From positions 1 to 28,129 of IMG/VR virus record IMGVR_UViG_3300025133_000484: a DNA stretch of 28,129 nt; one strand, given 5' to 3'. This stretch comes from a virus. The position numbers and the translations under genes are program-made. Below, piece by piece: positions 2,617 through 23,208 of this stretch. How positions within the stretch are numbered: position 1 is the first letter of the stretch; each line of letters begins with the position of its first letter. Below the pieces are notes generated by a model. That model saw only the letters and a list, made by a program, of their open reading frames with translations, was not told the origin of the DNA and ran no database searches.

Positions 2617-4653
2617 TTATCCACCTGCAATTTCACTGAAATCTACACCAGAACGAGTAGCAGCGAAGTTGAGTTGAATAAAGTTTATGGAACGAGTCGG
2701 TTTAACAAAGATATCTGCAACAAATTTATTTGAATCTATAACAGAAGAAGTGTTATTGGTATCATCACATACAACTTTAAAGTCTGTTATACCTCTTCGT
2801 CCCTGAATATCTCGCAAGAACGGTTCAATCATATTCTTGAATTGCGCCCTAGTGAACGAATCGTTTTGTTCAAAGAGTTGGAATTTAGCGGCAGTAGAAA
2901 TTGCTTTCTCCATCACAATGAAGAGTCTACGAACATTGATTCTGTCAAACGCACTTCCCTTGCTTTGTAATGTCTTATCACCGAAGAGGACTGTTCCTTC
3001 TCCGGGGAATGAAACTACTGGGTTAATTTCGTTTGTGTATAATTCATCACGATATGCTTCTTCCGTTGGATTCAACGCAAGTTTTACAACACCACGAATC
3101 TGTCCACGATTGAAACCTGCGGGAGAGAACCAAGGGTCGTTAACATTATCTGTTCTTGCACAGAGTCCTGCCATATCACCGTTTAGTGGCACCCATCGCA
3201 ATTTATCACTGTATCGGTCGTACATATACTTCCAACCACTGTCTAAGAATGCGTAAGAACTAACTTTATTAAGTTGGTTATCACGATAATCTACCACATT
3301 GTCTATCTGTTCTGACCTACTAATTACATCAACAACATCACCACTTTCTGGTGAAACGAATGCAACACAGTCTTTACGAGCATCTGCGATATCAATAATA
3401 TCACCTGCAAGACTTGCACTTGCATCTGCACCTAGTAGAAGTGAAATATCAACAGTATCGGGGTCACCAAACAAGTTATAACCAGACAGTTTGTTTGCAT
3501 CCGATGGTGTGCCGTATGAACCACCTGTACAGTCAAGATATTGTCTTGTAGCATTTGAGAATGTTACTGCTGTATCACCAAATGTTATTCCTGGAGCAGA
3601 ACCAGCACCTATATTGTCAATCGTTGCTCCGCCAACCCATATATATTTGGATTTATTGTTAACAACAGTAACATAGTAATTGGAGTTACCATCACCATCT
3701 CTACCGTCAATTGCTTTAGAAACATGATTGAATGTTTCTAAAATTGTTCCAGTGACTCCACTAAACTTACCGTTTTGGTCAATTACAAGAATAGAAAACT
3801 GGTCTCCTGTTCCACCGTAGAAATCTACATTGGTGGAAGTTCTTGCCCGTTCAATATATGATTTATATGGACTTTCCCATTGTCCTGAAATGCCGGCGGC
3901 TTGTGTACTACCGAGAGCAGGTGTAAAGTCAAATAACCAACCTTTGCCACTGACATTGGCTGTCATGCCTGTAATGGTATAATTTTTAGTTTTTAATGAA
4001 TTGAATCTAATCAAGTCTCCGATTATTGCAGATGTTGCTCCGGCTACAGGAAGTGCGGACCCTGTTCCAACTTGTACTTGAGTAGTACCAGAAGTCGCAG
4101 CGACTGCCAATGTGAATCCCACTCCGTTAACACCAACACCAACACCCTTGGTTGCTCCAGTTGGACCTCTTTGTGCAACTGCAATTCTTAGACTGTTACC
4201 GAGTGACCCTGCATATTTTGCAAAGAATTTGACACCGGCACCAGTACCACCTACTCCATAATATCCAGTATTCGTTGCTTGTCCAGATGAATGAACATCT
4301 GAATTTTCAATAAGTCCGCCAGTACCAGCCTGGGCCCCAGCAGAGTTAAGGTTATCACCAATTGTTCTAGCGGCACCACTATTTAATGCACCACTAACTG
4401 TTGCTCTTGCAACCGTCAAAGAACCACCATATCCTAAAAAGTTTGCGGCACACAACCATCCTGCATAATTTGAATCGTCTGGTTCATTGAAAAGACTTAC
4501 TAATTCGTTTTCACTAGCGACCAAAACTCTTTTATCAATCGGGCCCCAATTAAAAGGACCTGCATACCCCGCTTTAGTTGTTGAAACTGCGGGAATAACA
4601 TTTGTAAAATCTTTTTCTGTTACCGATACACCGGGGCTTACTCTAAATGCCAT
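2617..4653 (-). CDS. 18: Contractile tail sheath protein (gp18-like)
   Basis: This 678-residue protein is the tail sheath subunit, close in length to T4 gp18 (659). It polymerises around the tube and contracts on infection. The N-terminus FRVSPGVSVTEKDFTNVIPA and the following AGYAGPFNWGPIDKRVLV are classic for phage sheath proteins. The C-terminal third holds the conserved polymerisation domain: FDRINVRRLFIVMEKAI, then FTRAQFKNMIEPFLRDIQGR, FVADIFVKPTRSINFIQLNF and the final ATRSGVDFSEIAGG. The middle is Gly/Ser/Thr-rich and is probably the variable surface domain; it includes a short QRGPTGATKG patch that is echoed in gp15. ATG 4653 follows a strong AAGGAG with ideal spacing. A 94-base gap upstream, the longest in the window, separates it from gp17 and may hold its promoter. 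Confidence 0.97.
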   Translation of the reverse strand: MAFRVSPGVSVTEKDFTNVIPAVSTTKAGYAGPFNWGPIDKRVLVASENELVSLFNEPDDSNYAGWLCAANFLGYGGSLTVARATVSGALNSGAARTIGDNLNSAGAQAGTGGLIENSDVHSSGQATNTGYYGVGGTGAGVKFFAKYAGSLGNSLRIAVAQRGPTGATKGVGVGVNGVGFTLAVAATSGTTQVQVGTGSALPVAGATSAIIGDLIRFNSLKTKNYTITGMTANVSGKGWLFDFTPALGSTQAAGISGQWESPYKSYIERARTSTNVDFYGGTGDQFSILVIDQNGKFSGVTGTILETFNHVSKAIDGRDGDGNSNYYVTVVNNKSKYIWVGGATIDNIGAGSAPGITFGDTAVTFSNATRQYLDCTGGSYGTPSDANKLSGYNLFGDPDTVDISLLLGADASASLAGDIIDIADARKDCVAFVSPESGDVVDVISRSEQIDNVVDYRDNQLNKVSSYAFLDSGWKYMYDRYSDKLRWVPLNGDMAGLCARTDNVNDPWFSPAGFNRGQIRGVVKLALNPTEEAYRDELYTNEINPVVSFPGEGTVLFGDKTLQSKGSAFDRINVRRLFIVMEKAISTAAKFQLFEQNDSFTRAQFKNMIEPFLRDIQGRRGITDFKVVCDDTNNTSSVIDSNKFVADIFVKPTRSINFIQLNFAATRSGVDFSEIAGG

Positions 4654-8663: not shown

Positions 8664-9407
8664 TTATCCTACCATAAAATCTGGTGGAAGTTCGTACATC
8701 TCTTGAACTCTATCTTCAATTTTATCAATTTCTGTTTGGGCCTGTTCTAATAATTCTCTGCCATTAAAAGTCACTCCACCGGGAAGTTGAATACCTTCAA
8801 ACTTCGAAAGATTTGAAGCCCATTGCTTTTTAAATAAAGCAGTTATGTAACTTTTTAACATTCTATCTTTATAAATTTCTGGATATGTTTCTGGGTCAAG
8901 AACAACATATGCTTCTGCAACAAGGTAATCTCCTACTGTTACATCGGTTGCCCAATTCATATCAACTTTGAGTTGGTTAGTTACTCTACTAAATCTAATT
9001 GATTTTTCGGGCGAAAGAATATCCTGAATCATTGAAAGGTGTCGTTTAGTAATGTCATAATTTATCATTGATTGGTTTGGATTTCTTAATCCATAAAAAT
9101 CATTTAACGCCATTTGATATCTAACATCAAACATGTTTACAGTTCCTTCACTAAATTGAAATAATTTTGTGACGGAAATTACACTATCGTCAAGTGTGAT
9201 GTATTCGTTTGCTACATCATCATCTGTAATGATATGTTTAAGGAAAGTCTTTTCAACACCATCAAAATGATATTCTGCAAAAAATTGTAGTGCATCATCA
9301 ATTCTATCTTCTAATTGAGAATCGTCTACATTAATTTCGATTACAGGTGAACCAAGTCGCCTTAATGCATAATCTTTTAAAGTTGCTCTTGATGTTGGTT
9401 GTGCCAT
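8664..9407 (-). CDS. 13: Neck protein (gp13-like)
   Basis: This 247-residue protein matches T4 gp13 (309), which binds the portal after packaging and, with gp14, forms the head-to-tail connector. The N-terminus LKDYALRRLGSPVIEINVDD (10-29), then QLEDRIDDALQFFAEYHFDG (31-50), is the hallmark of the family. The C-terminal helices include YKDRMLKSYITALFKKQWA and FNGRELLEQAQTEIDKIE, also typical. It is shorter than the T4 protein. ATG 9407 is preceded by TAGGAG. A 57-base gap upstream separates it from the fibre region and shows no clear promoter or terminator. Its last codons contain AGGA, which probably serves as ribosome site for gp14 three bases further on. Confidence 0.93.
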   Translation of the reverse strand: MAQPTSRATLKDYALRRLGSPVIEINVDDSQLEDRIDDALQFFAEYHFDGVEKTFLKHIITDDDVANEYITLDDSVISVTKLFQFSEGTVNMFDVRYQMALNDFYGLRNPNQSMINYDITKRHLSMIQDILSPEKSIRFSRVTNQLKVDMNWATDVTVGDYLVAEAYVVLDPETYPEIYKDRMLKSYITALFKKQWASNLSKFEGIQLPGGVTFNGRELLEQAQTEIDKIEDRVQEMYELPPDFMVG

Positions 9408-9464: not shown

Positions 9465-9731
9465 TCATTTATATTCGTTGTCTAATTCAATTTGTTGAGA
9501 TAGATACATTAATTCTCTAATAGATTTTATATATCTGTCACCATCTTCCCACGGAAAAGGCGCCGGCATTTGACATTTTCCGTTTGATATGAAGTGTTTT
9601 TTGTTCTGAATGTAGTTTCTACTTAATCCTTCAGGAAGATAATATTCTGGGTCAAATTCTTTAAGAACTTTTATATCAAATTTATTGCCATTTATATAGA
9701 ATGAATCATTATAGTGTCTAAATTCACCCAT
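9465..9731 (-). CDS. Small hypothetical protein between the fibre block and the neck genes
   Basis: I do not recognise this 88-residue protein. It is rich in Tyr, Asn, Lys and charged residues, with no signal peptide or membrane segment. The middle holds GKCQMPAPFPWEDGDRYIKS (about residues 51-70), a Pro/Trp turn that looks like a conserved core, followed by a helix (SIRELMYLSQQIELDNEYK). ATG 9731 is two bases after the stop of the 571-residue gene, so the two are probably translated together. Possibilities include a chaperone or a small partner of the upstream fibre-like protein, but nothing in the sequence shows that. Coding status rests on its tight placement and on its protein-like composition. 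Confidence 0.62.
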   Translation of the reverse strand: MGEFRHYNDSFYINGNKFDIKVLKEFDPEYYLPEGLSRNYIQNKKHFISNGKCQMPAPFPWEDGDRYIKSIRELMYLSQQIELDNEYK

Positions 9732-9733
9732 GT

Positions 9734-11449
9734 TTATGAATGTGTATAACTATTTGGACGGAATGAAAATCCCGAATTTAAAGATAACCGATTCGCACAG
9801 TAAGGTCTGGCATCGCCACTACATTGGCCGCAATTTATCGGCCCGTGGTCTTCATCCCAAACCAAATCCAACGAATTCCATCCATTACCACCAGTATTTT
9901 TACAAGGATAAAATGCTTTAACTTCTAATACATTAGCAACTGTTTCCTTTACTGCCCATATACCAGCCCGCATAGCAGATGTTTCTGGTTGCCGCCAACT
10001 TGCATTTGGAGTAACCAACAACCATATTGTATCTTTTGCATCATCGGAAGTAATGGCTACTGTTCCTGTCTCGTCCCCTGCTTTTGCTAATAAACCTTGT
10101 GATTCTCCATAAATATCACAACAACCAGAGTCTGCTTCTAATTTGTGGGATTGGTCAAAATTACAGTGGTAATTAACATCTGCTCCAGGACTTTGGCCAT
10201 CTTCCAATCCTCTAACATCATAAGGTATACCACCATCATGCAAACCCATGTTAAAATCAACTCCGTTCTCAACCGCATATGGTGAATTTCCGTAATGCCA
10301 ACCGGCGCCTATAGAAGACGCATGAGGCGCGGGCCACGCAGTTCCATTACTCATGGTAGAAGGTCTGTCAAACACCATCGGTTTTCGTGTTGTTGAAAAG
10401 TCATTCCCACTTGCAACCACTTTCATTGTACTACACCAAACAACAACATCAGCACCGCAATTTTGACACCAAGGGTCGTGGTCCTTGTCCCACCGTTGTA
10501 TTGGAGTTCTCCATGAACCATAATCGACTTTTCCACCGCCAAGATATTGAGATGTACCATAAAAAAGATTACCCTTGCTGTCTATGGTAGTCCAACCTTC
10601 ATCCACATCCCACTTATTGTTCGCTGGCGCGTCAGCACTGCAGCCGTTATTGCCAAGAGCCCATTGGTATTGTTCAGGTTCACCCCAACCAATTATTTTT
10701 TTCCAAGCACTTAGCGTATTTGTACCATCCTCTTCTTCGCCGGCTGTCCAAGCCGTGCTTTTTGCATATCCACTTCCCGTAACACTGTTTTCAAGAGAAT
10801 TAGCATCTGAACTTAAATTATAAATTGCCACATGCCCGTTAAAACTACTTTGGGTATAGGGAATTTTGCCCGTCATTGCAACAATATTAGCATTTCTTTC
10901 TCCCGAAGCCCCAACAGCCTGGTCATTAAGTGAAAGATTAACAAATGAAGGAATAGAAGTAAATCCTGCTACCAATCCCATGTGGCTATTATTTATATTT
11001 TGCCCACCATTATAACCAGGTTTCAGCGTTTGTCTACTCCACTGTTCTCCCGTTATACTCCAGTTGGCATAATTAGTAGAACCATTTTCAGAAATTTTAA
11101 ATGCTTTTATATGACCGTTTGGAACATCATTTTCTTCTTTCCCTTTGTATACTACAAAAACATCTCTAGAAATCCATTCCAATCCGCCCCACGCTTCTTT
11201 GTGTCTACCATTAGTTACACCAGGCCAAGGAAATAATTGACCAAAATCATGTTTTATAAATACTCTTCCGTTTGAGTCAATTCCTAATAATAATAATTTA
11301 TTACAATGGTCCGTAGAATACTCATAACAACAATCCGAAGAAGAACAACAACAATCTTTCATGATATTTCCAACGAAACACCAGAGTTCAGGATTACCTT
11401 CGGCATCAAGAGCCCATCCGTGTCTATCTGGTTGCATCATTCCTAACAT
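9734..11449 (-). CDS. Cys- and Trp-rich 571-residue protein, candidate adhesin
   Basis: No family is recognised. The start is clear: AGGAG lies six bases before ATG 11449. The sequence has about 18 cysteines, including a dense cluster at residues 33-49 (DCCCSSSDCCYEYSTDHC), WCQNCG, a GCCD pair and CGQCSG plus YCANR near the C-terminus, and many tryptophans. Repeated short strands such as LLGIDSNGRVFIKHD, TTIDSKGNLFYG and DVFVVYKG resemble blades of a beta-propeller with Asp-box-like turns. It follows the collar-domain fibre and precedes the neck genes, where T4 has wac and where many phages carry variable host-contact genes. By eye, parts around 10300-10800 are near 50% GC, well above the wedge genes. 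A receptor-binding or decoration role is inferred from context only. Confidence 0.8.
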   Translation of the reverse strand: MLGMMQPDRHGWALDAEGNPELWCFVGNIMKDCCCSSSDCCYEYSTDHCNKLLLLGIDSNGRVFIKHDFGQLFPWPGVTNGRHKEAWGGLEWISRDVFVVYKGKEENDVPNGHIKAFKISENGSTNYANWSITGEQWSRQTLKPGYNGGQNINNSHMGLVAGFTSIPSFVNLSLNDQAVGASGERNANIVAMTGKIPYTQSSFNGHVAIYNLSSDANSLENSVTGSGYAKSTAWTAGEEEDGTNTLSAWKKIIGWGEPEQYQWALGNNGCSADAPANNKWDVDEGWTTIDSKGNLFYGTSQYLGGGKVDYGSWRTPIQRWDKDHDPWCQNCGADVVVWCSTMKVVASGNDFSTTRKPMVFDRPSTMSNGTAWPAPHASSIGAGWHYGNSPYAVENGVDFNMGLHDGGIPYDVRGLEDGQSPGADVNYHCNFDQSHKLEADSGCCDIYGESQGLLAKAGDETGTVAITSDDAKDTIWLLVTPNASWRQPETSAMRAGIWAVKETVANVLEVKAFYPCKNTGGNGWNSLDLVWDEDHGPINCGQCSGDARPYCANRLSLNSGFSFRPNSYTHS

Positions 11450-11461
11450 AATATACTCCTA

Positions 11462-13519
11462 TCAAGCAAAGTCAGCATAAGTGCATAGAAGTTCGCCGTT
11501 GGCAACTGTACATACCATTGAAATTACTAAATTTCCAGACCCCGAAATTCTACTCGGTTTGATGTTGTTAGCAAATACCATATTTGCATCACCAAATGAA
11601 ACATTCTTAGTTGAAGTGGTAGTGTTTTTCAATACAATTGTGTACATGCCACCAAGTACTTGCTTTGCATTAGTACCAACGGTAACATTCCCATCAATTT
11701 CAATCACTTGCACATTTCCGTTGTCCCAATCAAAATCGGGGGCATTGGACGAACCAACTGGTTGTGTTGAATAGATTTGACCTTTGGATGAAATATTCCC
11801 AGAAGCAACTATTTCTGCATCGCAAGAAATGCCTGCTTTTGTATGAAATTTATTATAAACTGTAAATCCACTTGCCATTCCACTAGGTGCGCCGGCGGCC
11901 GCCCAAGCCGTGGCTACTTTACTTCCACCATTGTCAGTTTCAATATCACAATATTTATTATCGCCCGTGGTTCTTATTACAGACCTATCACTCCCAGATA
12001 TAAGTTTTAGCAATCCCCCACCTTCTCGATGAATTACTATTCTGTTTGAATAACCACTAGCATAACAATAAATTTGGTCGGATTCTGAATTTGGTGTAAC
12101 CGCACCAATATTTAATGAAGGGCCATATGTTCCCGATGTTTTAATTCTAAATGCATTCTCAAAGGCAGAAACATCACCATCATCATCTGTACTAGGATAC
12201 CCACTAAATATTTTAAGATTTCTATATGCACCTACACCACTAACAGGTCCATATGTTAAAATATCACCGTCTATTGCCCCCTCAGTTTCGTGGTCGGTTA
12301 TTCCATCATCGTTTACACTAACATCTCCAATAATTGCTGACTTCGACAGTGAATCAATTCTAATAATATGATGCAACGCCATGTATGGTGAACGAAGGTC
12401 TGCACCACCTTGGGCTGCAGGGGCATGATAAGTAGTAACATTACTCCCTGTTCCTTCGTCATGGTCAATAACATAAGTTTGTGCATCTTCTCTTCCGCCA
12501 ATTTGTCCTGCGGTATATCCATCGAAACTACCGAACGAATCGGTAGCAGTAATGATATGTCTTGCTCTTAAGTCTGGCGTTTTTGCGGCAATTACCGTTA
12601 CGGCATCTACATTAACTGCGGTATTGCCACCGGCATTGTTGAATGTCAATTGAGGAGTAGTATTAAAAACTAATCCGTGTGGTGCGATTTCACCAGAAGT
12701 TTCACCGCCAGCAGAGAATCCACCAACCAAATAATCTGGGTCTAATATTACACTTCCTGTTGATGCAGAAGAAGCAGTATATGAAATAACGAGTGCATTA
12801 ACAGATGTCGAAGAAATTGACTGCACCGCAGTTGCCCCTGCAATCGCACCGTTGTCTCCACCCGGAATACTACCAAACTCAATATCTGCTTGGGCCCAAT
12901 ATCCAAATTTTGTTCCTACGCGATTATAATAATCAGGATAACCCACAACATCTACCGTTGCACCGTCACAAAGTTGCCATCCGTTTGGAATGTTATATGT
13001 TTCACCACCCCACGGAACAATATGTCCTACAGGATGAACGGAGTCAAGACTTACTGTGTTTTCACCACCAACAACTGTACCAACATAATTTGTTACAAGA
13101 CCGATATCATCATTAGAACCACTAACAAGAGTAATAATTGGTTTCACAACACTCCCCGCGGCCGCAGGAGCAGTTGCAGTTAAACCGCCAGAAACACCGG
13201 CGTCCATAAACCAAACATCTGAACCAGTTAATCCGGGGTTAGAAGGAGTTGCTGTAATAAAGTTTCCAGTATTAATTTCCCCTTGGTACACAACAGTAAA
13301 CTGTGAACCAGATACAGATTCTACTACACCTACTGCTTCTGCATTTACAACACTGTCTGCGCGTGCCAGTTTAAATGCACCATCCTCACCATCTGCATCA
13401 AGTTCATATCTAACAACAGTACCCGCAGAAAATCCGTGGCCGGCCTGTGTTTTGATGGCTCTAACGGATTTTCCGTCTGAACCAATTCCGCTATTTAAAT
13501 CAAAGGTTGAATATCCCAT
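11462..13519 (-). CDS. Short tail fibre-like protein with a split collar domain (gp12 position)
   Basis: This 685-residue fibre has several parts. Residues 27-151 match a module in the neighbouring 477-residue fibre. At 162-205 is the first half of a phage tail collar domain (HPVGHIVPWGG, then IPNGWQLCDGA and PDYYNRVGTKFG). At 313-388 is the second half (TPDLRARHIITATD, GQIGGREDA, SPYMALHHIIRIDS). About 105 residues, including a PHGLVFNT loop, separate them. A Gly/Ser-rich shaft follows, and the last 90 residues (FDWDNGNVQVIEIDGNVTV and on) form a C-terminal domain common in marine phage fibres. T4 gp12, which also carries a collar domain, pins the baseplate to the cell surface; the gene order places this one in the same slot. 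ATG 13519 has GGAGG ten bases upstream. The fibre call is firm; the receptor is unknown. Confidence 0.88.
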   Translation of the reverse strand: MGYSTFDLNSGIGSDGKSVRAIKTQAGHGFSAGTVVRYELDADGEDGAFKLARADSVVNAEAVGVVESVSGSQFTVVYQGEINTGNFITATPSNPGLTGSDVWFMDAGVSGGLTATAPAAAGSVVKPIITLVSGSNDDIGLVTNYVGTVVGGENTVSLDSVHPVGHIVPWGGETYNIPNGWQLCDGATVDVVGYPDYYNRVGTKFGYWAQADIEFGSIPGGDNGAIAGATAVQSISSTSVNALVISYTASSASTGSVILDPDYLVGGFSAGGETSGEIAPHGLVFNTTPQLTFNNAGGNTAVNVDAVTVIAAKTPDLRARHIITATDSFGSFDGYTAGQIGGREDAQTYVIDHDEGTGSNVTTYHAPAAQGGADLRSPYMALHHIIRIDSLSKSAIIGDVSVNDDGITDHETEGAIDGDILTYGPVSGVGAYRNLKIFSGYPSTDDDGDVSAFENAFRIKTSGTYGPSLNIGAVTPNSESDQIYCYASGYSNRIVIHREGGGLLKLISGSDRSVIRTTGDNKYCDIETDNGGSKVATAWAAAGAPSGMASGFTVYNKFHTKAGISCDAEIVASGNISSKGQIYSTQPVGSSNAPDFDWDNGNVQVIEIDGNVTVGTNAKQVLGGMYTIVLKNTTTSTKNVSFGDANMVFANNIKPSRISGSGNLVISMVCTVANGELLCTYADFA

Positions 13520-13525
13520 TTATAA

Positions 13526-13849
13526 TTATCCTCCACCATCGTGAATTGTGCCATGAATGAAGTCAACTTCATATGCGGTGCCATTGCTAACGCATTGACA
13601 TGTTACTCCATCTATTCCTCTATCTACAGCATAACAGAAAACATCAGCGTTTGCGACATCTTCACCAGTAAATTGACAACAGTATGCCGTGTTTCCAATA
13701 TTATGGTCTATCTGATACTTTCCGATTCCACTACGACCTGCGGTCACTCCACCCAACAAATTATCAACAATTGGGGTTGCCGATGCTGTTCCTGTTATCA
13801 TGAATACATTTCTAGGACCTACACCTGTTACTGTTCTTGCACTACCCAT
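13526..13849 (-). CDS. Small Cys-rich fibre-associated protein
   Basis: This 107-residue protein lies between two fibre genes, starting one base after the stop of the 477-residue gene and ending six bases before the 685-residue gene. Residues 41-61 (GIGKYQIDHNIGNTAYCCQF and on) match the C-terminal domain of the 477-residue fibre (VYGITHNFGTSHYTATATI) in the pattern Y-x-I-x-H-N-x-G-x-x-x-Y, so it looks like a stand-alone copy of that terminal domain. It has five cysteines (YCC, FCY, TCQC). Its last codons, for Gly-Gly-Gly, contain the GGAGG that serves the next gene. It is probably a virion or fibre-tip component; this is inferred. No start other than ATG 13849 fits. Confidence 0.75.
   Translation of the reverse strand: MGSARTVTGVGPRNVFMITGTASATPIVDNLLGGVTAGRSGIGKYQIDHNIGNTAYCCQFTGEDVANADVFCYAVDRGIDGVTCQCVSNGTAYEVDFIHGTIHDGGG
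13530..13534 (-). promoter_or_regulatory. Ribosome site embedded in the C-terminal Gly codons of the 107-residue gene
   Basis: GGAGG lies within GGT GGA GGA, the last three codons before the stop of the 107-residue gene, ten bases ahead of ATG 13519. It is the only good Shine-Dalgarno site for the collar-domain fibre, so translation of the two genes is probably linked. Confidence 0.7.
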
Positions 13850-15283
13850 TTATGTTACATCCTTTGCTAATATTACTTCTAAACCACAGTCTTCGACTGT
13901 CATAGTATCGATGTTGCCAGTGTCTTCTCGGAATGTGGTAATTTTACAATGATTCGTACCTTTGCTGTTCATGTAGAGATTACCCCAAGTACTCCCGCGG
14001 ATTGTGGCTGTTGCAGTATAGTGTGATGTTCCAAAGTTATGAGTAATTCCATATACACCTTCGCTATCTCTATCAGCACACAAACCAGAAGATGCACTAG
14101 TCCAATCACCGTCTGCCTTAATAGTAATCCTTCTCACTGTTGGAGCAGCCGTATCCGTTTCCGCAGAAACTCTCGCACCAACATATTGCAATACATATCC
14201 AGCGGTTGCGCCTAAACCAAGTACTAATGGTTTTCTAACTTTTCCTGCTTCTCCAACTTCAGTAGTAGTAATTTCACCACTTGCTCCATCAGTACCAGAA
14301 AGGAAATATACAGAACCGGCGGTTAATCCACCACATGCACCAGCACCTGCTTGCTTTGCTAATGCCTTCCCCCAATCACCATGAATTTCACCATGTGTAG
14401 TAACCACATATTGATTTGCGTTTGGAACTTCTGAAATAATTCCTAGTACTTCTGCTTCTGCTTTGCTCGCGGCATGTGCTAAAGCACAAGTCGTTCCCAC
14501 CACTCTTACTGCTTGTCCAAATGTAAATCCGTGTGATGCGTGTGTGAATATTTTCTTGTTTACACCATCATAAATTCTAACTAATCCACTCTCGTCCATA
14601 TAAATGCCTTGGGTGAGTCCGACACCACCAGTAGACATATGGCCCATTTTCATAGAAGCAGACTGGTAGGTTGCTCCAGAGTTTCCTTCACCACAAAGAC
14701 CTTTTAACATAAATCCAGAACCAGTTGCATTGGCGCCACTCTTAAATCTAAATGTATCATCATTGGATGACATTATTCCAACACCACCAGTTAAGTTTAT
14801 ATAATCTGAAGTAGTCCATGCACCAGAACAACCAACGCCAAACAAGGAGTATCCGCCTGCAAGACCAGCAGTCATTCCACGCCACAAGAAAGATGCACTT
14901 GCGCCATCTTGTCTAGTCAATATAATACCACCACCACCACTGTTGCCAATGTAATCATCGGTTGCACCATCACCGCATGCACCAAGAACAATATTAAAAT
15001 CTTCAACAGTAAGTTCTCTAGAATTTATAGTAGTAACATCTCCATTAAATGTTACATTACCCGCAAAAGTCATATCTCTGTCAATCGTGCCATCAAGACC
15101 TACTTCTGCCAAACCAGAACTATTTAGAGTGACCCCAATACCATCCCCACCAGTAACAGAATAGGCAGTTATCTCATTAAGTTTTCCTATAATATCATTA
15201 TTGGTAACTTGCATCCATTCATAGAATGTATCTCCTAATACTAAAGGAGGAATATTTACTGTATTATTGTCTGATGCGCCCAT
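13850..15283 (-). CDS. Tail fibre-like structural protein, 477 residues
   Basis: The N-terminus has NIPPLVLGDTFYEWMQVTNN (10-29) followed by DIIGKLNEI, an attachment-type segment seen in fibres of marine T4-like phages. Next comes FAGNVTFNGDVTTINSRELT (73-92) with VEDFNIVLG, a repeat type common in phage fibre shafts. Residues 247-371 form a module also present in the 685-residue fibre. Residues 404-477 carry a terminal domain with the Y-x-I-x-H-N-x-G pattern, found again in the 107-residue protein. It has eight scattered cysteines. ATG 15283 shares one base with the stop of the coiled-coil gene (TAATG). The gene sits where T4 has gp11 and gp12. It is probably a baseplate-attached fibre or a connector for one; the exact role is inferred. 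Confidence 0.83.
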   Translation of the reverse strand: MGASDNNTVNIPPLVLGDTFYEWMQVTNNDIIGKLNEITAYSVTGGDGIGVTLNSSGLAEVGLDGTIDRDMTFAGNVTFNGDVTTINSRELTVEDFNIVLGACGDGATDDYIGNSGGGGIILTRQDGASASFLWRGMTAGLAGGYSLFGVGCSGAWTTSDYINLTGGVGIMSSNDDTFRFKSGANATGSGFMLKGLCGEGNSGATYQSASMKMGHMSTGGVGLTQGIYMDESGLVRIYDGVNKKIFTHASHGFTFGQAVRVVGTTCALAHAASKAEAEVLGIISEVPNANQYVVTTHGEIHGDWGKALAKQAGAGACGGLTAGSVYFLSGTDGASGEITTTEVGEAGKVRKPLVLGLGATAGYVLQYVGARVSAETDTAAPTVRRITIKADGDWTSASSGLCADRDSEGVYGITHNFGTSHYTATATIRGSTWGNLYMNSKGTNHCKITTFREDTGNIDTMTVEDCGLEVILAKDVT

Positions 15284-15510
15284 TAATTAATTACCTTTAT
15301 TGCTTCTTTAATTTCTTTAATCATAAATTTTATTTCACCAAGTTCTTCTTTAATATTATTTATATCATTTTCATGAGTATCTATTCTATTACTTTTTTCT
15401 TTTCTCTTTTTCCATGCATTCAACGCGTCTAAATCTGTATTGAGAATTGCCTTAGAATAAGTATCTCTAACTAAATCATTTCTATTTTCAATTTGATTAG
15501 ATTTATTCAT
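15283..15510 (-). CDS. Small coiled-coil protein (75 residues)
   Basis: The open frame extends back to 15597, but ATG 15510 is preferred. It lies one base after the stop of the giant structural gene, and the extension would overlap that gene by 86 bases. The protein has a short conserved-looking N-terminal part (NDLVRDTYSKAILNTDLDAL) and a KKRKEK basic patch. A long heptad-like stretch follows (NRIDTHENDINNIKEELGEI, then KFMIKEIKEAIKVIN), predicted by eye as a coiled coil. Small proteins with the RDTYSKAILNTD-type opening are, to my recollection, common in phage structural clusters, but I cannot assign a function. It could be a minor baseplate or fibre-assembly component. It ends in the TAATG overlap with the fibre gene. 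Confidence 0.75.
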   Translation of the reverse strand: MNKSNQIENRNDLVRDTYSKAILNTDLDALNAWKKRKEKSNRIDTHENDINNIKEELGEIKFMIKEIKEAIKVIN

Positions 15511-15511
15511 A

Positions 15512-18500
15512 TCATGATGCCAGTGCAATTGCTCTGAAGTCTCGAATAGAAGGGACATTAGTGGAAGAATCACTATACATACAAATCTTAATTGCAAAGG
15601 TTTTTACAGGATTGTCAAATGTGCTTGACAAAGAGAAAGTTACATCGCTGAAATCATAATCATTTGAAGAATCAGGAATTGTAGAATCTTCTGTCATTTG
15701 TGTGTATGAAATTTCTTCAAATGCAGTATCGTCTTCTATTCCAAGCGGTTTAATAAACACTTGAACTGATGCACCACTAGGTTTATTAATGGACATCAGA
15801 ACTTTAAAATTCACAGATTCAAATCCGTCTGCTAATGTTACTCTTCTAGTAATATATCTACTGGCCGCACCCCTTGTCAACAAGGGATTGTCTGTACCTG
15901 AACCATATGCATCTTCATCCGGGTCATGAGCATTAGCATCCAATTCTCCATTTGAACCAACTACGGTACTATTATTAATTTGATTATTTATAGTAATAAA
16001 TTCTAATCGTTTTGTATCTATTACAGGAGAAACATTTATATCGGTGCTGTTGAATGTTGCCGATAATTTGAAATCGTTTGATGTAGATACAGCAGGATTT
16101 TCAAGATAAATGTTCTCATTTGTAATCATTTTAACAGATACATTATTTGCAAGGTCAAATGTATAATCTATACTTGAAGTTTTTGGTAATATTTCAGTAG
16201 AATTAACTTTTAATACATCTGTTGTCAAATTAACCCAAGGGTATACTTCACTTTCAAGAACATCAAATTCTACACTTCCCGCACCAGCAGAAAACTCACA
16301 AGAATTTAATCTAAACTTTAGAGACTTATCAAAATTAGGAATCAAAATTCCAGTATTTTGTGGTGTGTATAATATACCATTGTGGGGTGATTCAGAAATA
16401 ATAACTCCTGTACCCAATTCTGCTTGTCCTACTTCCGCTGTGTATAATTTATAAGAAGAACTCGAAGTTTTTATACAGATTGAATATTCACCCGGAGTTA
16501 AATACACTGGACTATCGAAAGTAAATCTAGTATATGTTTCTTCGTTAGGATAATCTCCCTGAACTTCTGCCTCTAAAGGAATTTTAGTTACAGACGAGAA
16601 CGGTAAAGATTGAGACAAGTGAGGATACCCACCAATAGTAGGTCTAATTTCTACAGTAATAGGAACATTTTCATCTCGTTGTTGGAAGAACAAATCAAGA
16701 CTGTGAACAAATGTACCATTTGAATATTGATTTCTATCTACTGTGAAGGTTTGAGAGAGAGGGTCTATCCAATAATTATTTGTACTTGTATTAAAATATC
16801 TTTCTCTATCAAATGCATCTCTAATAATTGCTTCGTCATTTGCAACTTGTCTTCTGCTTACAATAGGTCTAGTAGAAACTAACTCTCCATCTCTTTGTGG
16901 AGATATACCTATCGCATAGTAGATTCCATCAGCCGCAGTTGTAGTAGAAGATACTATATTTGAAGAACTGTCTGTTAATCTGAATAATCTATCGCCAGTT
17001 CTATATGTTTGCCCGGCAATGTCAAATTTAATATCAGAAATTTTACCTTCGGAATCAGTATAAAGGTTGTCGCCTGAAACACCACCAGCAGGAGCGCAAT
17101 TATCTGAAACTAAACGCCCATCAAAATATGGCCAAACTTGAGTGTTTGGTTTCATGCCGTACGCACTCATTGTTATCGTTTTTGCTCTTACATAAGGAAC
17201 AACACTAACATCAATTAATTTATCGTTAACAAGTTTTTCTAATCTTTCTGGTAATTTTCTTACTCGTACACCAACTCTGCCTTCATTTGTTTTTTGTGTT
17301 TCTGTAGAACGAATTGCAGATGACTCAACAAGGTTAACTCTATTTTCTATATTGTTTCCAGTATTTCCTGTGGTGAATGCATTTAAGTAATCTCTTCCTC
17401 TATTGTTATAAAGGTCGTTTTTAGTAACTGTTCTGCCAGACCAAAGAATCTCCCAATCGTTCCACTGAGTACCAAAACCATATCCAGAATTTTCATTGTT
17501 TACTTTCCAACGGTCATTCTCTCCTTGAGTATTAATTTTAACAGTTGGTTTGTTTGTTGTATCATACCATTCATCAAACGGGTCATCAAATTTTATATAA
17601 CCCATCCAAGAAGCAATATTAAAACTGTTTACTTCTATAGAATCACTTGCAAGTGGTTGCCAGTGAAAAGAACCATTTACAATGTAGTCTTTTGTAACAA
17701 TACCTTCTGATGATATGGTAATACCTGAGTTAGATGCAGTAACTCCTAGTTGTAAAGAATTACTAGTAAAAGATGGTCTTAAATGCCCGTTTTCATAATC
17801 AATAGAACAAACATAATCTTTATTAAGAACATCTCCAACAGAGTGTCCTCTAAATGCATCTACCATAATACCATTTTTAAATATGTCATTACCACTAGAG
17901 TCTGTAATTGACCTTCCTTCTGTTTCTTGTTCAAGCAGGGATAGACTTGTATAATATTCAAGATTCTCTACTCTTTTTTCTATAGAAGCAACATCTTTCA
18001 TCGTGTATCGTTTATTCTCAACAAACTTTGAAGTTACATCACCAACATTATATGTGTAAGAAGGAATGGTTAAGACATATAATGTCATAGCATCTTCTCT
18101 GTCTGGCGGTTCTACTGGGTTTAATGAGGATATACCTCTTATAATATCAAATTGTCTTTCTTTTGTAAGAATAATCTTATCAATTCTAGACAAGTGATGG
18201 TCATAATCAACAACAGTTGATGCATTAGAAGGTCTAGGAATTAGAGTATTTGGGGAAATTGTATCATCACTCTCCATTGTTCCTCTAAAGTCCACACTAT
18301 TTCTTAATGAATAACTTTTGCCTGTAGTTGGACTTATATAGATTGGAATATTATCGAAAGAGAACCCATCATTGCTATTGTTTGGAGTATATGAATTTGC
18401 AATGAATGGACCGATTCCACTTTCATGGTCAAATCTGGTATATGTTGCTTTTAAATTAATATCTCCAGTTAGTACCCCACCACCAGTAGAATAATTAGGT

Positions 18501-20800
18501 TTAAGATACAGTCTACCAAAATCGTAATAGTTGTCCCTTTGACCATTATCAAGTTGGAACGCTTCTTTTACATCACTAGCAGGTAATCCTAATCTTGTAG
18601 CGACATTTCCGTCAGTTCCTATATCTTGAATAGAATCTATATCGTAAATATCGTGATGGCCCAATTTAAAATAATATGAACCTGTTGAACCAGATAAACC
18701 CGGTTCGTTTCCATCTGATGTTCGAATATGAGTTGAAGAACATCCTGAAGTGAATGTCTTATTTCTAAATTTTATTGCACCACCAACATCTACTCTCGCA
18801 TGAAGAGTATAACTGCCTGGTGATAATCGATTTCGAGTATCATCAGTCCAACCAATCTTTATCGATTGACCACCCGACATTTTCTCAAATCGCACACCAT
18901 CGGTATTTACTCTTTCACCAGTTCCTCCAATTTCATTACCCCCTGTACCAGTTCCACAAATTAAAGTATAATTATTTTGTTTTTCTGTGGCGCTAATTTC
19001 GCCAATTTGTGATGCATAAAATTGTAAAGATGAATCTCCAGTTTCTAGTTCTACTATGGAGTTTATATCAGTATGAACTATATCAAAACTTTTAATTATA
19101 CTATAAGTTAAATTGGGTCCGAAAGTACTAACAGAATTTCCAATGGGTACTGGAAAAATTGATGTATTAAAACTAGGTTCGAATAATCGAGTTCCGTTTG
19201 AATTAGTTCCGCCCGTTGCCACAACAAATCCTGCTGTGAGGCTTCCTGAACCCAGTGTGGCGCCACCACCAAATTTTACAACATTACCAAAAGAGGTAAT
19301 CCCACCCAACTGGATATCAAACAAATACATATTATAACTTTGCTGTTGCCCCGTCATCGAAGCGTTTCCATAATTACTCCAATCATTGTTTGGAATAATA
19401 TGTCTAACTCTCGCAACACCAGTTACACCACTTGGGTCATGTAACAATATTTTTGGTGCGCCATATGTAAATCCAAAACCACCAGTCATTGCTCCAGCAC
19501 CGCCTGTCCCTGCAACACCCTTAGCGCCTGCTGTTGTGCCACTTTTAACTTTTACATATTGTCCAAATTTAACATTATTCATTGGCTGAGTACGAACTTC
19601 AGCAGTTTCTCTTGCTTTGTCTACCAAAACATATTGAGTTCCCTGAGTTTCTAATTCATATCCAAAGACATATGCTTTTCCTGCTTGAAGACCAACAGCG
19701 AGTTTATTAATATCTCCGCCACCATTAGCAGTATAAGGTCCTCCTAAAGTGTTCAATGATTCTCTTATATCAATTTCAAAAGGTTTTGTTGTATAAGAAC
19801 CAGATTCATCATAGGTTCTTCTTGCAAGGGTTTTTTCTAATTCTGAATAATCACTATATTCTTTCTTTAGTTGTATATTACCATCGACCCATCTAACCAC
19901 TTCAAAGAAATTCTTATCTCCAAAAGCAGTAGCACCCGCAGTAGCATGATTTTCAAAGTTTTTAAAATCTAATTTAAGTTCAATATTATATCTGTCAGAG
20001 CCAGGTGCATTATAATTATATGCTCCAGAAGCAGGGTCTCTTAAAGTATAATCATTAGTTGGTGTGATTATATTTTTATTAGTATTAAATCCAACTCTGC
20101 TTGTAGGAGAAGTAAAATTCCTAACATCAGAAACTGAACCTTCTCCAGTTAAACTGTAAGGACAAACACTCTGTAAATTGGTTTTTATAAAAAATCCATC
20201 AACAAAGAAAATACCATTATTAACTGTCGTCAATTTTGCAGTACCAGTTACTCCATCATAAGAAGTAGCATCATCTGGATTAGTAGAAATCTCAGAAATT
20301 TTTGCGTAGTATTCATTACTACCGCAAACTCCCTTGACCATTGTACTTGGACCAAATTGGTCTTCACCTCCAGATGCTCCACCATTAATATATTGAACAC
20401 ACAAAATAGGGTAATTGTCATTGGTGTTAATGTCTGTAGTGATTCCGTGAAGAACTTTAGCCCTTCTAGTATCATTTGCATCGTCATTATATATTACCAA
20501 ATCAGTTCCATAAAAATCGGTAACATCTATATCAGCCGTTTGGCCAACAGGTTCTTGTTTTTGGAATCTAATATAAACAACATCTTGATTTGATATTTCC
20601 CCACCAATAACTTTAGACCCATTATTCATGATATGATTACCAAATTTTTGAATTTGATTTTGAATAACTGTTTGCAGTTGTGTTAATTCTCTTGCTTGTA
20701 CTGCTTTCCCCGGATTAAACAACATACGAAGATAATTTTTATTTTCGTTAAAATCATCGTAGTATGGGTCTGTATTAAAAAGTGTTGGTTCGTATACCAT
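15512..20800 (-). CDS. Giant baseplate/tail structural protein with DUF4815-type N-terminus
   Basis: This 1762-residue protein is the largest in the window. The N-terminus VYEPTLFNTDPYYDDFNENK, then NYLRMLFNPGKAVQARELTQ, is the signature of DUF4815 phage structural proteins. Near residues 850-970 is YTMKDVASIEKRVENLEYYT with adjacent helices. Residues about 1340-1500 hold IDPLSQTFTVDRNQYSNGTF, LDLFFQQRDENVPITVEIRP and SPVYLTPGEYSI, a beta-sandwich type found in other marine phage structural proteins. The last 120 residues (SRYITRRVTLADGFESVNFK and on) look like a jelly roll. The upstream TTG at 20809 is rejected in favour of ATG 20800, which follows AGGA and lies five bases after the gp8 stop. 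It fills the T4 gp9-gp10-gp11 slot, so a fibre-anchoring baseplate role is likely but inferred. Confidence 0.88.
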   Translation of the reverse strand: MVYEPTLFNTDPYYDDFNENKNYLRMLFNPGKAVQARELTQLQTVIQNQIQKFGNHIMNNGSKVIGGEISNQDVVYIRFQKQEPVGQTADIDVTDFYGTDLVIYNDDANDTRRAKVLHGITTDINTNDNYPILCVQYINGGASGGEDQFGPSTMVKGVCGSNEYYAKISEISTNPDDATSYDGVTGTAKLTTVNNGIFFVDGFFIKTNLQSVCPYSLTGEGSVSDVRNFTSPTSRVGFNTNKNIITPTNDYTLRDPASGAYNYNAPGSDRYNIELKLDFKNFENHATAGATAFGDKNFFEVVRWVDGNIQLKKEYSDYSELEKTLARRTYDESGSYTTKPFEIDIRESLNTLGGPYTANGGGDINKLAVGLQAGKAYVFGYELETQGTQYVLVDKARETAEVRTQPMNNVKFGQYVKVKSGTTAGAKGVAGTGGAGAMTGGFGFTYGAPKILLHDPSGVTGVARVRHIIPNNDWSNYGNASMTGQQQSYNMYLFDIQLGGITSFGNVVKFGGGATLGSGSLTAGFVVATGGTNSNGTRLFEPSFNTSIFPVPIGNSVSTFGPNLTYSIIKSFDIVHTDINSIVELETGDSSLQFYASQIGEISATEKQNNYTLICGTGTGGNEIGGTGERVNTDGVRFEKMSGGQSIKIGWTDDTRNRLSPGSYTLHARVDVGGAIKFRNKTFTSGCSSTHIRTSDGNEPGLSGSTGSYYFKLGHHDIYDIDSIQDIGTDGNVATRLGLPASDVKEAFQLDNGQRDNYYDFGRLYLKPNYSTGGGVLTGDINLKATYTRFDHESGIGPFIANSYTPNNSNDGFSFDNIPIYISPTTGKSYSLRNSVDFRGTMESDDTISPNTLIPRPSNASTVVDYDHHLSRIDKIILTKERQFDIIRGISSLNPVEPPDREDAMTLYVLTIPSYTYNVGDVTSKFVENKRYTMKDVASIEKRVENLEYYTSLSLLEQETEGRSITDSSGNDIFKNGIMVDAFRGHSVGDVLNKDYVCSIDYENGHLRPSFTSNSLQLGVTASNSGITISSEGIVTKDYIVNGSFHWQPLASDSIEVNSFNIASWMGYIKFDDPFDEWYDTTNKPTVKINTQGENDRWKVNNENSGYGFGTQWNDWEILWSGRTVTKNDLYNNRGRDYLNAFTTGNTGNNIENRVNLVESSAIRSTETQKTNEGRVGVRVRKLPERLEKLVNDKLIDVSVVPYVRAKTITMSAYGMKPNTQVWPYFDGRLVSDNCAPAGGVSGDNLYTDSEGKISDIKFDIAGQTYRTGDRLFRLTDSSSNIVSSTTTAADGIYYAIGISPQRDGELVSTRPIVSRRQVANDEAIIRDAFDRERYFNTSTNNYWIDPLSQTFTVDRNQYSNGTFVHSLDLFFQQRDENVPITVEIRPTIGGYPHLSQSLPFSSVTKIPLEAEVQGDYPNEETYTRFTFDSPVYLTPGEYSICIKTSSSSYKLYTAEVGQAELGTGVIISESPHNGILYTPQNTGILIPNFDKSLKFRLNSCEFSAGAGSVEFDVLESEVYPWVNLTTDVLKVNSTEILPKTSSIDYTFDLANNVSVKMITNENIYLENPAVSTSNDFKLSATFNSTDINVSPVIDTKRLEFITINNQINNSTVVGSNGELDANAHDPDEDAYGSGTDNPLLTRGAASRYITRRVTLADGFESVNFKVLMSINKPSGASVQVFIKPLGIEDDTAFEEISYTQMTEDSTIPDSSNDYDFSDVTFSLSSTFDNPVKTFAIKICMYSDSSTNVPSIRDFRAIALAS

Positions 20801-20805
20801 AGTTA

Positions 20806-23208
20806 TCAATATCCTATCAAAATCTTAATTTCTTCTTCTTGCTCAGAGCCTCTAGTAATGGGTCTTATATTCTGTATGTATAATACTTCTCCAGACCCTA
20901 TTTGCATTTCTGGTCCAGAAACCGATGTAATTCCATGAGCGGCCGCACCACAAAAACCACCAGTCAGATAATTTCCTCTAACATCATTAAGAAATAATTC
21001 TCCAGTTGATGCCGAAGTGGCAGACCAATCAACAATTTTTCCAGTAGTCATCATACCAGTGGTTGCACCATCAGAATTTAAAAGGTCTATCTGTCGAAAG
21101 ATGTCATCTTTAGTGTATGTGTCGCCAGTCAAACTTGGACTACCACTAGTATCTTCAATAATTATCTTTGTTGTTAATCTGTATGATTTTTCTAAAGTGT
21201 CTTCATCTTGAACATCCGTTATTCTATTTCCTCTTGCTACATTGCCGTAGGAATTCCCCGCAGGAACATAAAATTCAAATGTTGAACCTTGACCAGATTT
21301 AAAATGTTTGATAAGTTCTCCCATTTTTCTTTCAACAACGCGTGTACCAGCCCAAGAAATTGAACCAACCGTTCCGTCTGATTGATATTCAACAATAGGA
21401 GAGGTCCCTCCCGAACTGTCCACAAATGCATTTTTGGAAACTTTAATAATTAATTCATAAGGTCCAGGCATCCCTGCTTCGCCTTGACTCCACGAATCAA
21501 CAGTTCCAACAGCAGTTGCACCACTCGCTCCTTCTAGTCCGTTGTGTTGTTTTACAGTTCTACCTTTAGTAAATGCACCAGTTGCACTAGCATTTCCAGA
21601 GGAAAATATAACTCTTGTAAGTTTACTCTCTGGTTTATCTAAATCAAATGTTCCTTGAACATCTGTAAGTTCTAATGTTCCTATTGTCGTGTCTGAGCCC
21701 CCAGGCGTCCAATTTTGAATCATCGCTGTTGCCTTTGAGGTTTCTCCCATAATAGAATCGCCAGTTCTTCCCCAATATTTAAAGGTGGTGTCAGTAAAGT
21801 TTATATTACTAAGTGTTGGTTTAACAACAGTTAATTGTTTTTTCCTTGTAATTTCACTACCCGCAATGTCTCCATCATATGTTCCACCACTAATCTTCGG
21901 ATTTTTGACCAACATTACCTGTCTAATATCTTGACCAGTTACAAAATTAGTATCGGTGCCCTTCACTGTTGTTCTAATCATAATTTTATCACTTTGAAAA
22001 TCTTGAAGTGCATTCGCGCCGTGCCCATATCCCGGAGATATAATAGCATCTAATGTTGGACCTTGAATAGTCGTACCGAATCCAAAAGTAGTGCCCCCTG
22101 CATTTGTAACAGTCACTGGTCTTATCTTGGGAACGGCAACTGAATATCCTTGGCCTCGTTGTAGCATGTTCATACCAATGATTTGATAATCAGAATTTAA
22201 ATCAACAATTGCTTCGGCACTAATTCCATCACCATCAATAATAATATCTGGCATAATTTTATATTGAGATACTGAAGAACCACTAAGTCTCACATCTTCT
22301 GTCAACGGAAGTTCAAATGATACTCTTTTTGAAGTTGCATCATATGAAGTTATTCTTCTCCTTTGTCCCATTCCTGGTCCATATGAAATATAGATTACAT
22401 ATCCAACATAATAATCGTCACCGATGGAAGTTGCCGGTGGCTGTATCATAATATCAGTAGAACCCACAAGAGAATCATCAAGAACTTCCAACGCAGATTC
22501 TCCTTCTCTAGCACCTTGAGATTTTCCCCATTCCGCGGCAGTCCAACCCGAAGAAGGCAAAGTAACAGAAATGTCGTTTATTGCTCCGTCTACCGAATTT
22601 TGTTGAGAATTCCATTGGTTTACATATTGACCAGTACTTTCTGTTGCAAACTGAATAGGAAGATAACTAGTGGTTTTAAAATTGACACTATCTTCGGTTA
22701 CTTTGTAAATATATTTCCACTTATATCCATCTTCCAGTGTAACAATATCAGATATAGTATGTGATGGTTCAAACTGTGACACAGCACCACCAGTATTGCC
22801 CAAGCACTTATAAACATTTCCTGTAGATGTGTGTACATAAAATCGTTTTGGACTACTTCCCGATGCAGTACCAAACATGTCGTTTGAATCGTTATATGCA
22901 TCATAAGTAGAACCAGTTTCCCAATCAATTCTTGGAATCATTCGGTGAACATTTCTTGATGAAATTCTCTTTGCTCCAACTCCATCTCTCCATGCTTGAG
23001 ATGACCTAATTACTGAATCTATGTTGGATGGGGGAGTGTTCTCACTTGTAGCACCATAAGGTCCTGACTCTGGTGGAGCAGTAATGTCCCAACTGTCTAC
23101 TTTTCCAAACACCAAAAAATATTGGTCGTCAGCATCATTATCGAAAACTTTTATAAAGTCATCGGCAAATGTAGTTTTAAATTCTTGTTTTAATGCATCT
23201 GATGCCAT
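20806..23208 (-). CDS. 8: Baseplate wedge protein (gp8-like), greatly expanded
   Basis: T4 gp8 has 334 residues; this protein has 800. The N-terminal 180 residues match gp8 (FLVFGKVDSWDI, then NIDSVIRSSQAWRDG, HRMIPRIDWETGSTYDAYND, VYKCL and LEDGYKWKYIYKV). The last 30 residues also match (EVLYIQNIRPITRGSEQEEE, then IKILIGY, against the T4 end MIYMENRPPIIMAMDQTEEI). Between them are added beta-rich blocks: a QRGQGYSVAVPKI type near 350, and three copies of a V-x-x-W module near 482-545 (MIQNW), 547-620 (TVDSW) and 697-765 (KIVDW). ATG 23208 follows AGGAG inside the end of the gene before. It is a wedge component that bridges other wedge proteins. The insertions are the odd part. Confidence 0.9.
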   Translation of the reverse strand: MASDALKQEFKTTFADDFIKVFDNDADDQYFLVFGKVDSWDITAPPESGPYGATSENTPPSNIDSVIRSSQAWRDGVGAKRISSRNVHRMIPRIDWETGSTYDAYNDSNDMFGTASGSSPKRFYVHTSTGNVYKCLGNTGGAVSQFEPSHTISDIVTLEDGYKWKYIYKVTEDSVNFKTTSYLPIQFATESTGQYVNQWNSQQNSVDGAINDISVTLPSSGWTAAEWGKSQGAREGESALEVLDDSLVGSTDIMIQPPATSIGDDYYVGYVIYISYGPGMGQRRRITSYDATSKRVSFELPLTEDVRLSGSSVSQYKIMPDIIIDGDGISAEAIVDLNSDYQIIGMNMLQRGQGYSVAVPKIRPVTVTNAGGTTFGFGTTIQGPTLDAIISPGYGHGANALQDFQSDKIMIRTTVKGTDTNFVTGQDIRQVMLVKNPKISGGTYDGDIAGSEITRKKQLTVVKPTLSNINFTDTTFKYWGRTGDSIMGETSKATAMIQNWTPGGSDTTIGTLELTDVQGTFDLDKPESKLTRVIFSSGNASATGAFTKGRTVKQHNGLEGASGATAVGTVDSWSQGEAGMPGPYELIIKVSKNAFVDSSGGTSPIVEYQSDGTVGSISWAGTRVVERKMGELIKHFKSGQGSTFEFYVPAGNSYGNVARGNRITDVQDEDTLEKSYRLTTKIIIEDTSGSPSLTGDTYTKDDIFRQIDLLNSDGATTGMMTTGKIVDWSATSASTGELFLNDVRGNYLTGGFCGAAAHGITSVSGPEMQIGSGEVLYIQNIRPITRGSEQEEEIKILIGY

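Follow-up and report, generated by a model that had tools for sequence, protein, structure and literature searches.

The window analysed here, a 28-kb virus record of 28,129 nucleotides (IMG/VR record IMGVR_UViG_3300025133_000484), has the structural gene order of a T4-like phage and encodes a protein rich in cysteine and tryptophan, here called CW (571 amino acids, aa; 9734-11449, minus strand), which is a candidate beta-propeller-like receptor-binding protein. At slightly better than an even chance, we regard CW as an exchangeable, adhesin-like receptor-binding protein of a marine T4-like phage, probably a propeller, that works at or beside the tip of the neighbouring collar-domain fibre. 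A receptor-binding role had been put forward in a preliminary description of the sequence and is still the best reading, because CW diverges fast, an exchange junction lies at the end of the module, lectin-like or other proteins lie upstream of gp13 elsewhere, and the locus is that of the host recognition cluster (HRC), as far as this is described in the available part of PMC7029224.

The gene was confirmed as an open reading frame (ORF) at 9734-11449 with its ATG at 11449; the strand, unstated in the preliminary description, is the minus strand, and the plus strand over the same positions is full of stops. A Shine-Dalgarno-like AGGAG (11456-11460, minus strand) lies 6 bases 5' of the ATG. CW starts 12 bases past the stop of the collar fibre gene (685 aa, T4 gp12-like; 11462-13519, minus strand; Pfam Collar PF07484, E 9.6e-9) and ends 2 bases ahead of the next ORF, s88 (88 aa; 9465-9731, minus strand), which separates it from the gene for the neck protein gp13 (8664-9407, minus strand; phrog_211 head-tail adaptor, E 1.8e-41), the downstream border of the slot.

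Members of the CW family, 541-628 aa long, were found in nine other IMG/VR contigs via gp13 and family alignments. Group 1 (L002 and L003, which are near duplicates, and L083) is about 40% identical to the window CW, and group 2 (L004/L084, L085, L086, L087, L102 and L103) is 25-30% identical to it for the four members compared. In all nine contigs CW has the collar fibre on one side and a small ORF followed by gp13 on the other, although in L102 and L103 the collar gene is cut and only partly present, and the placement was also taken from collinear alignment. Because CW occupies the same place in every one of these contigs, it is a syntenic member of the fibre cassette and not a lone import. 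The suggestion that its composition marked a separate acquisition was not upheld either: its GC content equals that of its fibre neighbours and its codon usage is only mildly unusual (z 2.2 among 13 genes). At 41.1%, the GC content does exceed that of the wedge genes (about 31-39%), as had been noticed, and those of VrlC (34.6%) and gp13 (32.7%), but it is not above the three adjoining fibre-cassette genes (41.4, 42.3 and 41.6%).

CW diverges very fast, and the collar fibre diverges with it over its C-terminal third. When nine syntenic genes were compared among seven contigs, CW was the least conserved in 19 of 21 pairs and tied in one more (L083/L084). Between the window and six relatives, CW was 25-40% identical where gp13 was 82-85%. 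The pairwise tables of identity and of dN/dS (the ratio of nonsynonymous to synonymous substitution rates) were made without L003, and the nine-gene identity table also without L102 and L103; in this nine-gene table, the L086 CW was entered with a longer upstream start, which was corrected for the dN/dS comparison. At the DNA level, a block of low identity to L002 (37-51% in 200-column steps) covered the C-terminal third of the collar gene and CW (9752-12200, minus strand), and was flanked by 72-90% identity on the gp13 side and by 54-83% on the other side, except for 46% over the gene of a 107-aa protein. The same two parts fell to 67-92% between L084 and L086, whose flanks were mostly 87-100% identical. 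In the L002/L083 pair, dN/dS was 0.52-1.05 in four fibre-cassette genes, CW included, versus 0.09-0.17 in VrlC, s88 and gp13 to gp15.

CW has been exchanged between phage backbones, and in one pair a sharp border of the exchange was seen between the small ORF and gp13. The gp13 proteins of L085 and L103 are 100% identical (dS 0.013), and their CW proteins are 60.3% identical with saturated dS. Along the DNA, identity was 52-72% through CW and the small ORF, followed by only 2 mismatches in positions 10143-10983 of L085, through gp13; the switch at 10142/10143 falls just past the s88 stop at 10138. The L103 CW shares 93.9% of its amino acids with that of L102 (dS 0.18), compared to the 60.3% shared with L085, whereas the terminase (gp17) of L103 is 99.1% identical to that of L085 and 89.5% to that of L102. 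Because the L103 CW is nearer to L102 while the terminase is nearer to L085, this pattern points to a trace of recombination between backbones, with exchange of the cassette, and, if CW does help to choose the host, the three contigs are a natural swap experiment.

The place of the cassette in the genome was then compared with that of the HRC, which the available portion of PMC7029224 presents as a variable region between VrlC and the neck gene gp14 in pelagimyophages and cyanomyophages. In the window, VrlC, the collar fibre and gp13 all lie on the expected sides and the cassette fills the same region, but VrlC and gp13 are only about 6.1 kb apart, compared to a mean HRC of 44.6 kb given in the text available from that source. 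In the part of PMC7029224 that was available, no domain named corresponds to the CW family. By VrlC and gp13 alike, the best annotated phage was the Pelagibacter phage Mosig (34.0 and 48.5% identity, respectively), with HTVC008M, Melnitz and cyanophages among those ranked next. No host marker of the psbA-type or CsgG families was detected in the eight family contigs searched (those other than the window and the L003 contig), which are possibly fragments.

The variability of the slot itself was followed in 80 gp13 loci, 67 of them usable and 13 dropped for having too little upstream sequence or no ORF of 250 aa. The nearest large ORFs upstream of gp13, some of which may be baseplate or other non-fibre genes, fell into 20 unlinked groups, so that the variable slot recognised in the preliminary description was borne out and the gene content of these loci is hypervariable, as that of the HRC. 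CW was present in three of the 67 loci, in each of which gp13 identity was 82% or more; the other 64, with a gp13 at most 69% identical, had no CW. Among the other occupants, LamG/ConA-like lectin domains were detected in the three tested members of an 11-member group, and in one further locus the nearest large ORF (L080:4778-7015, 1986 bases from gp13) gave matches to an RCC1-like propeller and to CBM5/12 and encodes 31 Trp.

The fold of CW was predicted with AlphaFold2 for the window protein (alignment of 8 rows) and for its L087 orthologue (9 rows), giving a mean predicted local distance difference test score (pLDDT) of 35.6 and 41.3 and a predicted template modelling score of 0.45 and 0.57, respectively, with moderate model confidence only in about the first 145-150 residues. 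In both models the elements are mostly strands, and the helices are 3 to 9 residues long. When these models were compared with known structures by VIA-align, nearly all of the 50 rows listed per model (of 420 chains for the window protein and 682 for the orthologue at Z of at least 2) were beta-propellers, as judged by their titles and by recall; a few titles, e.g., 3fgb and 3no2, were uninformative on the fold. The matches listed included LRP/megalin, TolB, kelch, sialidase, WD40, PLL/AAL lectin and GH43 structures. Z values were 6.0-8.0 for the window model (181-255 residues, root-mean-square deviation 4.2-6.0) and 6.8-9.0 for the orthologue, and a Z under 8 may reflect a mere common arrangement of elements. 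The structure prediction that had been proposed as a check thus favours a propeller through two weak models, from which it is fairly probable that CW has this fold. No propeller family was found among the Pfam matches at E<=1 for eight members, and internal repeats are not required of divergent propellers.

The D-S-x-G turns that had been noted earlier are present in CW (DSNGRVF, DSKGNLF), but a loose D..G...aromatic pattern was not above the expectation from shuffling (2 seen versus 0.89 expected, P 0.22). A tighter pattern, D-S/A-x-G-N/R, devised after viewing the sequence, occurred 3 times versus 0.04 expected, with one copy in the group 1 relatives and none in group 2. Turn counts were rejected as proof of a propeller, since the tight pattern was post hoc and fades in the orthologues.

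From these data, CW would be made from the run of structural genes directly after the collar fibre and would probably be mounted at or beside the tip of that fibre, with exposed loops that would vary and whole cassettes that would be swapped, changing specificity. CW is predicted to be present in the virion and may contact the collar fibre; it would bind a glycan or a protein of the host surface, and a swap of CW would be predicted to alter the host range.

Several results weigh against this role. No known receptor-binding protein was matched significantly by the CW sequence in Pfam, PHROGs, the sequences of the Protein Data Bank (PDB) or annotated phages; the models are poor by their pLDDT, with VIA-align Z of 6 to 9. 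At a cut-off of E<=0.001, Foldseek had no match for the window model and, for the orthologue, a single weak one (E 5.6e-4, TM score 0.14-0.17); a fold search in BFVD was uninformative, and a self-comparison of the family profile with hhalign found no internal repeat. In the L002/L083 pair CW was not the fastest-changing gene, and only one pair showed the sharp junction. Where it was computable (4 of 7 pairs), the dN/dS of CW was below 1 (0.16-0.53); because of this, positive selection on CW is not claimed, but only fast divergence and exchange. The Foldseek lists also held many non-propellers at weak E-values, and the absence of phi11 Gp45, PRD1 P2 and phiKZ gp131C from the matches listed carries no weight.

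The sequence searches agree with the earlier statement that no known family fits. Against Pfam, CW gave two sub-threshold matches (a lectin SBD at 0.02 and a TraI-like one at 0.094), and the OAA-family lectin domain PF17882 reached 15.6 bits, versus a Pfam cut-off of 20, in one of eight members. Nothing was obtained for CW in PHROGs at E<=1, nor in annotated phages at E<=1, where two orthologues gave the same result and the fibre protein P0004 had no match. In PDB sequences, three matches at E 2.1 were not significant, and the family profile had none at E<=10. The CW protein alone as a query found nothing in IMG/VR, the collar fibre as a query gave 5 pattern matches there with none confirmed, and the family alignment gave 15 pattern matches in GTDB genome contigs, none of them confirmed. 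Because the searches of family libraries and annotated phages found no significant relative, automatic annotation would leave CW as a 'hypothetical' protein.

CW could instead be a virion enzyme and not a pure binder: a propeller that clears the host surface by cleaving glycans, as a depolymerase of sialidase- or GH43-like type. Sialidases and GH43, GH62, GH93 and GH117 propellers are present among its structural neighbours, as is the phage endosialidase 3ju4 among those of the window model in VIA-align. However, these neighbours are only at the level of the fold and come from poor models, no GH or sialidase family was matched in Pfam at E<=1, and the tight D-S/A-x-G-N/R pattern is not conserved, so we consider an enzyme unlikely.

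Slightly less likely again is an assembly factor or tip chaperone for the collar fibre, similar to T4 gp38 or Tfa and absent from the virion. The position of CW directly downstream of the fibre gene with its 12-base gap, and its divergence along with the C-terminal third of the fibre, would suit such a role. Known fibre chaperones are, however, much smaller than the 541-628 aa of the CW family, whose members are probably propeller-shaped, and neither a Tfa nor a gp38 family was among the Pfam and PHROG matches at E<=1. Modules of gp38 are exchanged among T-even phages. The roles of gp38 differ between phages, since in the part of PMC10175313 available it is a chaperone in T4 and an adhesin in T2 and S16, where it is fixed to the fibre and modulates the choice of receptor.

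On the favoured reading, as an exchangeable receptor-binding protein, CW would act similarly to these T2/S16 adhesins, but with a propeller of the phi11 Gp45 type, and would belong to neither family. Like the T2/S16 gp38 gene, it lies directly downstream of a fibre gene and diverges with the fibre tip; in contrast, gp38 follows gp37 whereas CW follows a gp12-like collar fibre, gp38 has a polyglycine domain whereas the CW models are strand-rich and propeller-like, and no sequence match to gp38 was found at E<=1 (8 members in Pfam, 9 in PHROGs). Propellers serve, or are suspected to serve, in host binding by phi11 Gp45, PRD1 P2 and phiKZ gp131C, according to the available sections of PMC4901313. 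None of them was a significant match of CW in PDB sequences and, compared to them, CW is a separate ORF in which no stem or coiled coil is recognisable and the propeller is weakly predicted.

Less probable still, CW could have no part in adsorption and be a moron, a passenger gene carried in a plastic slot and involved, e.g., in changes of the host surface or in phage exclusion. The stretch before gp13 in Mosig does carry annotated oxygenases, a ferrochelatase, a heme oxygenase and a bilin reductase, and glycosyltransferases are frequent in the HRC in what is available of PMC7029224; but CW is tightly packed among structural genes, occupies one site in all nine other family contigs and diverges together with the collar tip.

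In T4, wac, the gene for the neck whisker protein fibritin, lies between genes 12 and 13. A functional stand-in for fibritin, very improbable, would share this relative place between a gp12-like fibre and gp13, but no fibritin family was among the matches at E<=1, and neither poor model of CW, mostly strands, shows long helices (a weak test) or a coiled coil, compared to the conserved N-terminal domain and coiled-coil shaft ascribed to fibritin in the available text of PMC3797505. A decoration protein, which had also been suggested, was not supported by anything found.

The translation reproduced the composition reported for CW, i.e., 571 residues with 18 Cys and many Trp (24), and DCCCSSSDCC near the N-terminus, at residues 32-41. 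This corresponds to 3.2% Cys and 4.2% Trp, compared to at most 1.7% and 1.9% in the 10 other window proteins examined, with the 107-aa cassette protein (4.7% Cys) as the sole exception on Cys. Within the family, the alignment of nine members has no invariant Cys column, although at least one of positions 443 and 444 is Cys in all nine. C270, C328, C331 and C516 are common to the window protein and the two aligned group 1 members, and C543 and C551 line up with group 2 Cys. The CCCSSSDCC codons (residues 33-41; 11327-11353, minus strand) are private to the window member: none of the five cluster positions is Cys in the eight other aligned members. The cluster was therefore rejected as a family feature, and a stabilisation of the family by this cluster was not supported, although the alignment leaves room for a metal site in the window CW itself. 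W12, W137 and W234 are invariant in the nine, many other Trp are not kept, and some, e.g., W23, W92, W286 and W524, are replaced by Tyr or Phe in some members. Alignments A5 and A6 were made without P0013, which differs from P0012 by two residues. As CW has no hydrophobic, membrane-like or signal-like N-terminal segment, it probably folds in the cytosol, and disulfides are for that reason less likely.

Exchangeable receptor-binding proteins, propellers among them, and the hypervariable locus are already known, and the CW family itself is most likely undescribed; a limited check of the literature on propeller receptor-binding proteins, Pelagibacter phages and VrlC, gp38 and the HRC recognised no description of it. 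If CW is a receptor-binding protein, the collar fibre tip and CW would be a compact metagenome marker of host specificity for uncultured marine T4-like phages. More tentatively, and with considerable doubt, CW could belong to an undescribed family of large aromatic-rich propeller adhesins that pair with the tip of the collar fibre, the two genes being a specificity cassette that marine T4-like phages recombine at a fixed border just before gp13. In that case a single short block of DNA could serve to read host switching in uncultured phages and to test it.

The gene order of the window is gp6, a wedge protein, gp8, VrlC, a 104-aa ORF, a 477-aa protein, the 107-aa protein, the collar fibre, CW, s88, gp13, gp14, gp15, terminase and sheath, with gp14 and gp15 assigned by position. 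The VrlC baseplate protein (1765 aa, with a start codon that is not settled; 15512-20809, minus strand) is the upstream border of the HRC, and was assigned by its match to phrog_358 (E 4e-300) and to the annotated VrlC of HTVC008M and Mosig. A small ORF at 15283-15597 overlaps the end of VrlC and is matched in 11 loci (E up to 0.0097; positions partly checked); it was listed with a TTG start, and its true start is probably internal. The 477-aa cassette protein (13850-15283, minus strand) and the collar fibre have a stretch in common (32% over 154 columns). The 107-aa protein (13526-13849, minus strand; 5 Cys) diverges nearly as fast as CW, with identities of 30-47% when the window and groups 1 and 2 are compared; its gene was present in the seven contigs compared, with a dN/dS of 1.05 in L002/L083. 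Homologues of s88 come after CW in other family contigs, and of the 80 gp13 loci, 16 have a match to s88 (E up to 3e-4), some of them loci without CW.

Other Cys-rich proteins were observed around these loci. A slot group of 13 members from more distant relatives (L035:121-2673 and 12 other loci) includes very Cys-rich proteins, with as many as 40 Cys over about 850 aa and CC motifs close to the N-terminus in several; Pfam gave two weak Lcl_C matches only for the three members assayed, one of which had none. Two extra small Cys-rich ORFs lie beside gp14-gp15 in L002 (10684-11241, 8 Cys in 185 aa; 12083-12460, 14 Cys in 125 aa), the first of which is shared by L083, and the gp14/gp15 border of the window is too tight for one. 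The sequence TATAAATA, the T4 late promoter core, occurred 5 times versus 4.06 expected, and no promoter is claimed. Finally, the sheath gene (2617-4653) was an outlier in codon usage (z 5.3 among 13 genes), perhaps reflecting high expression.
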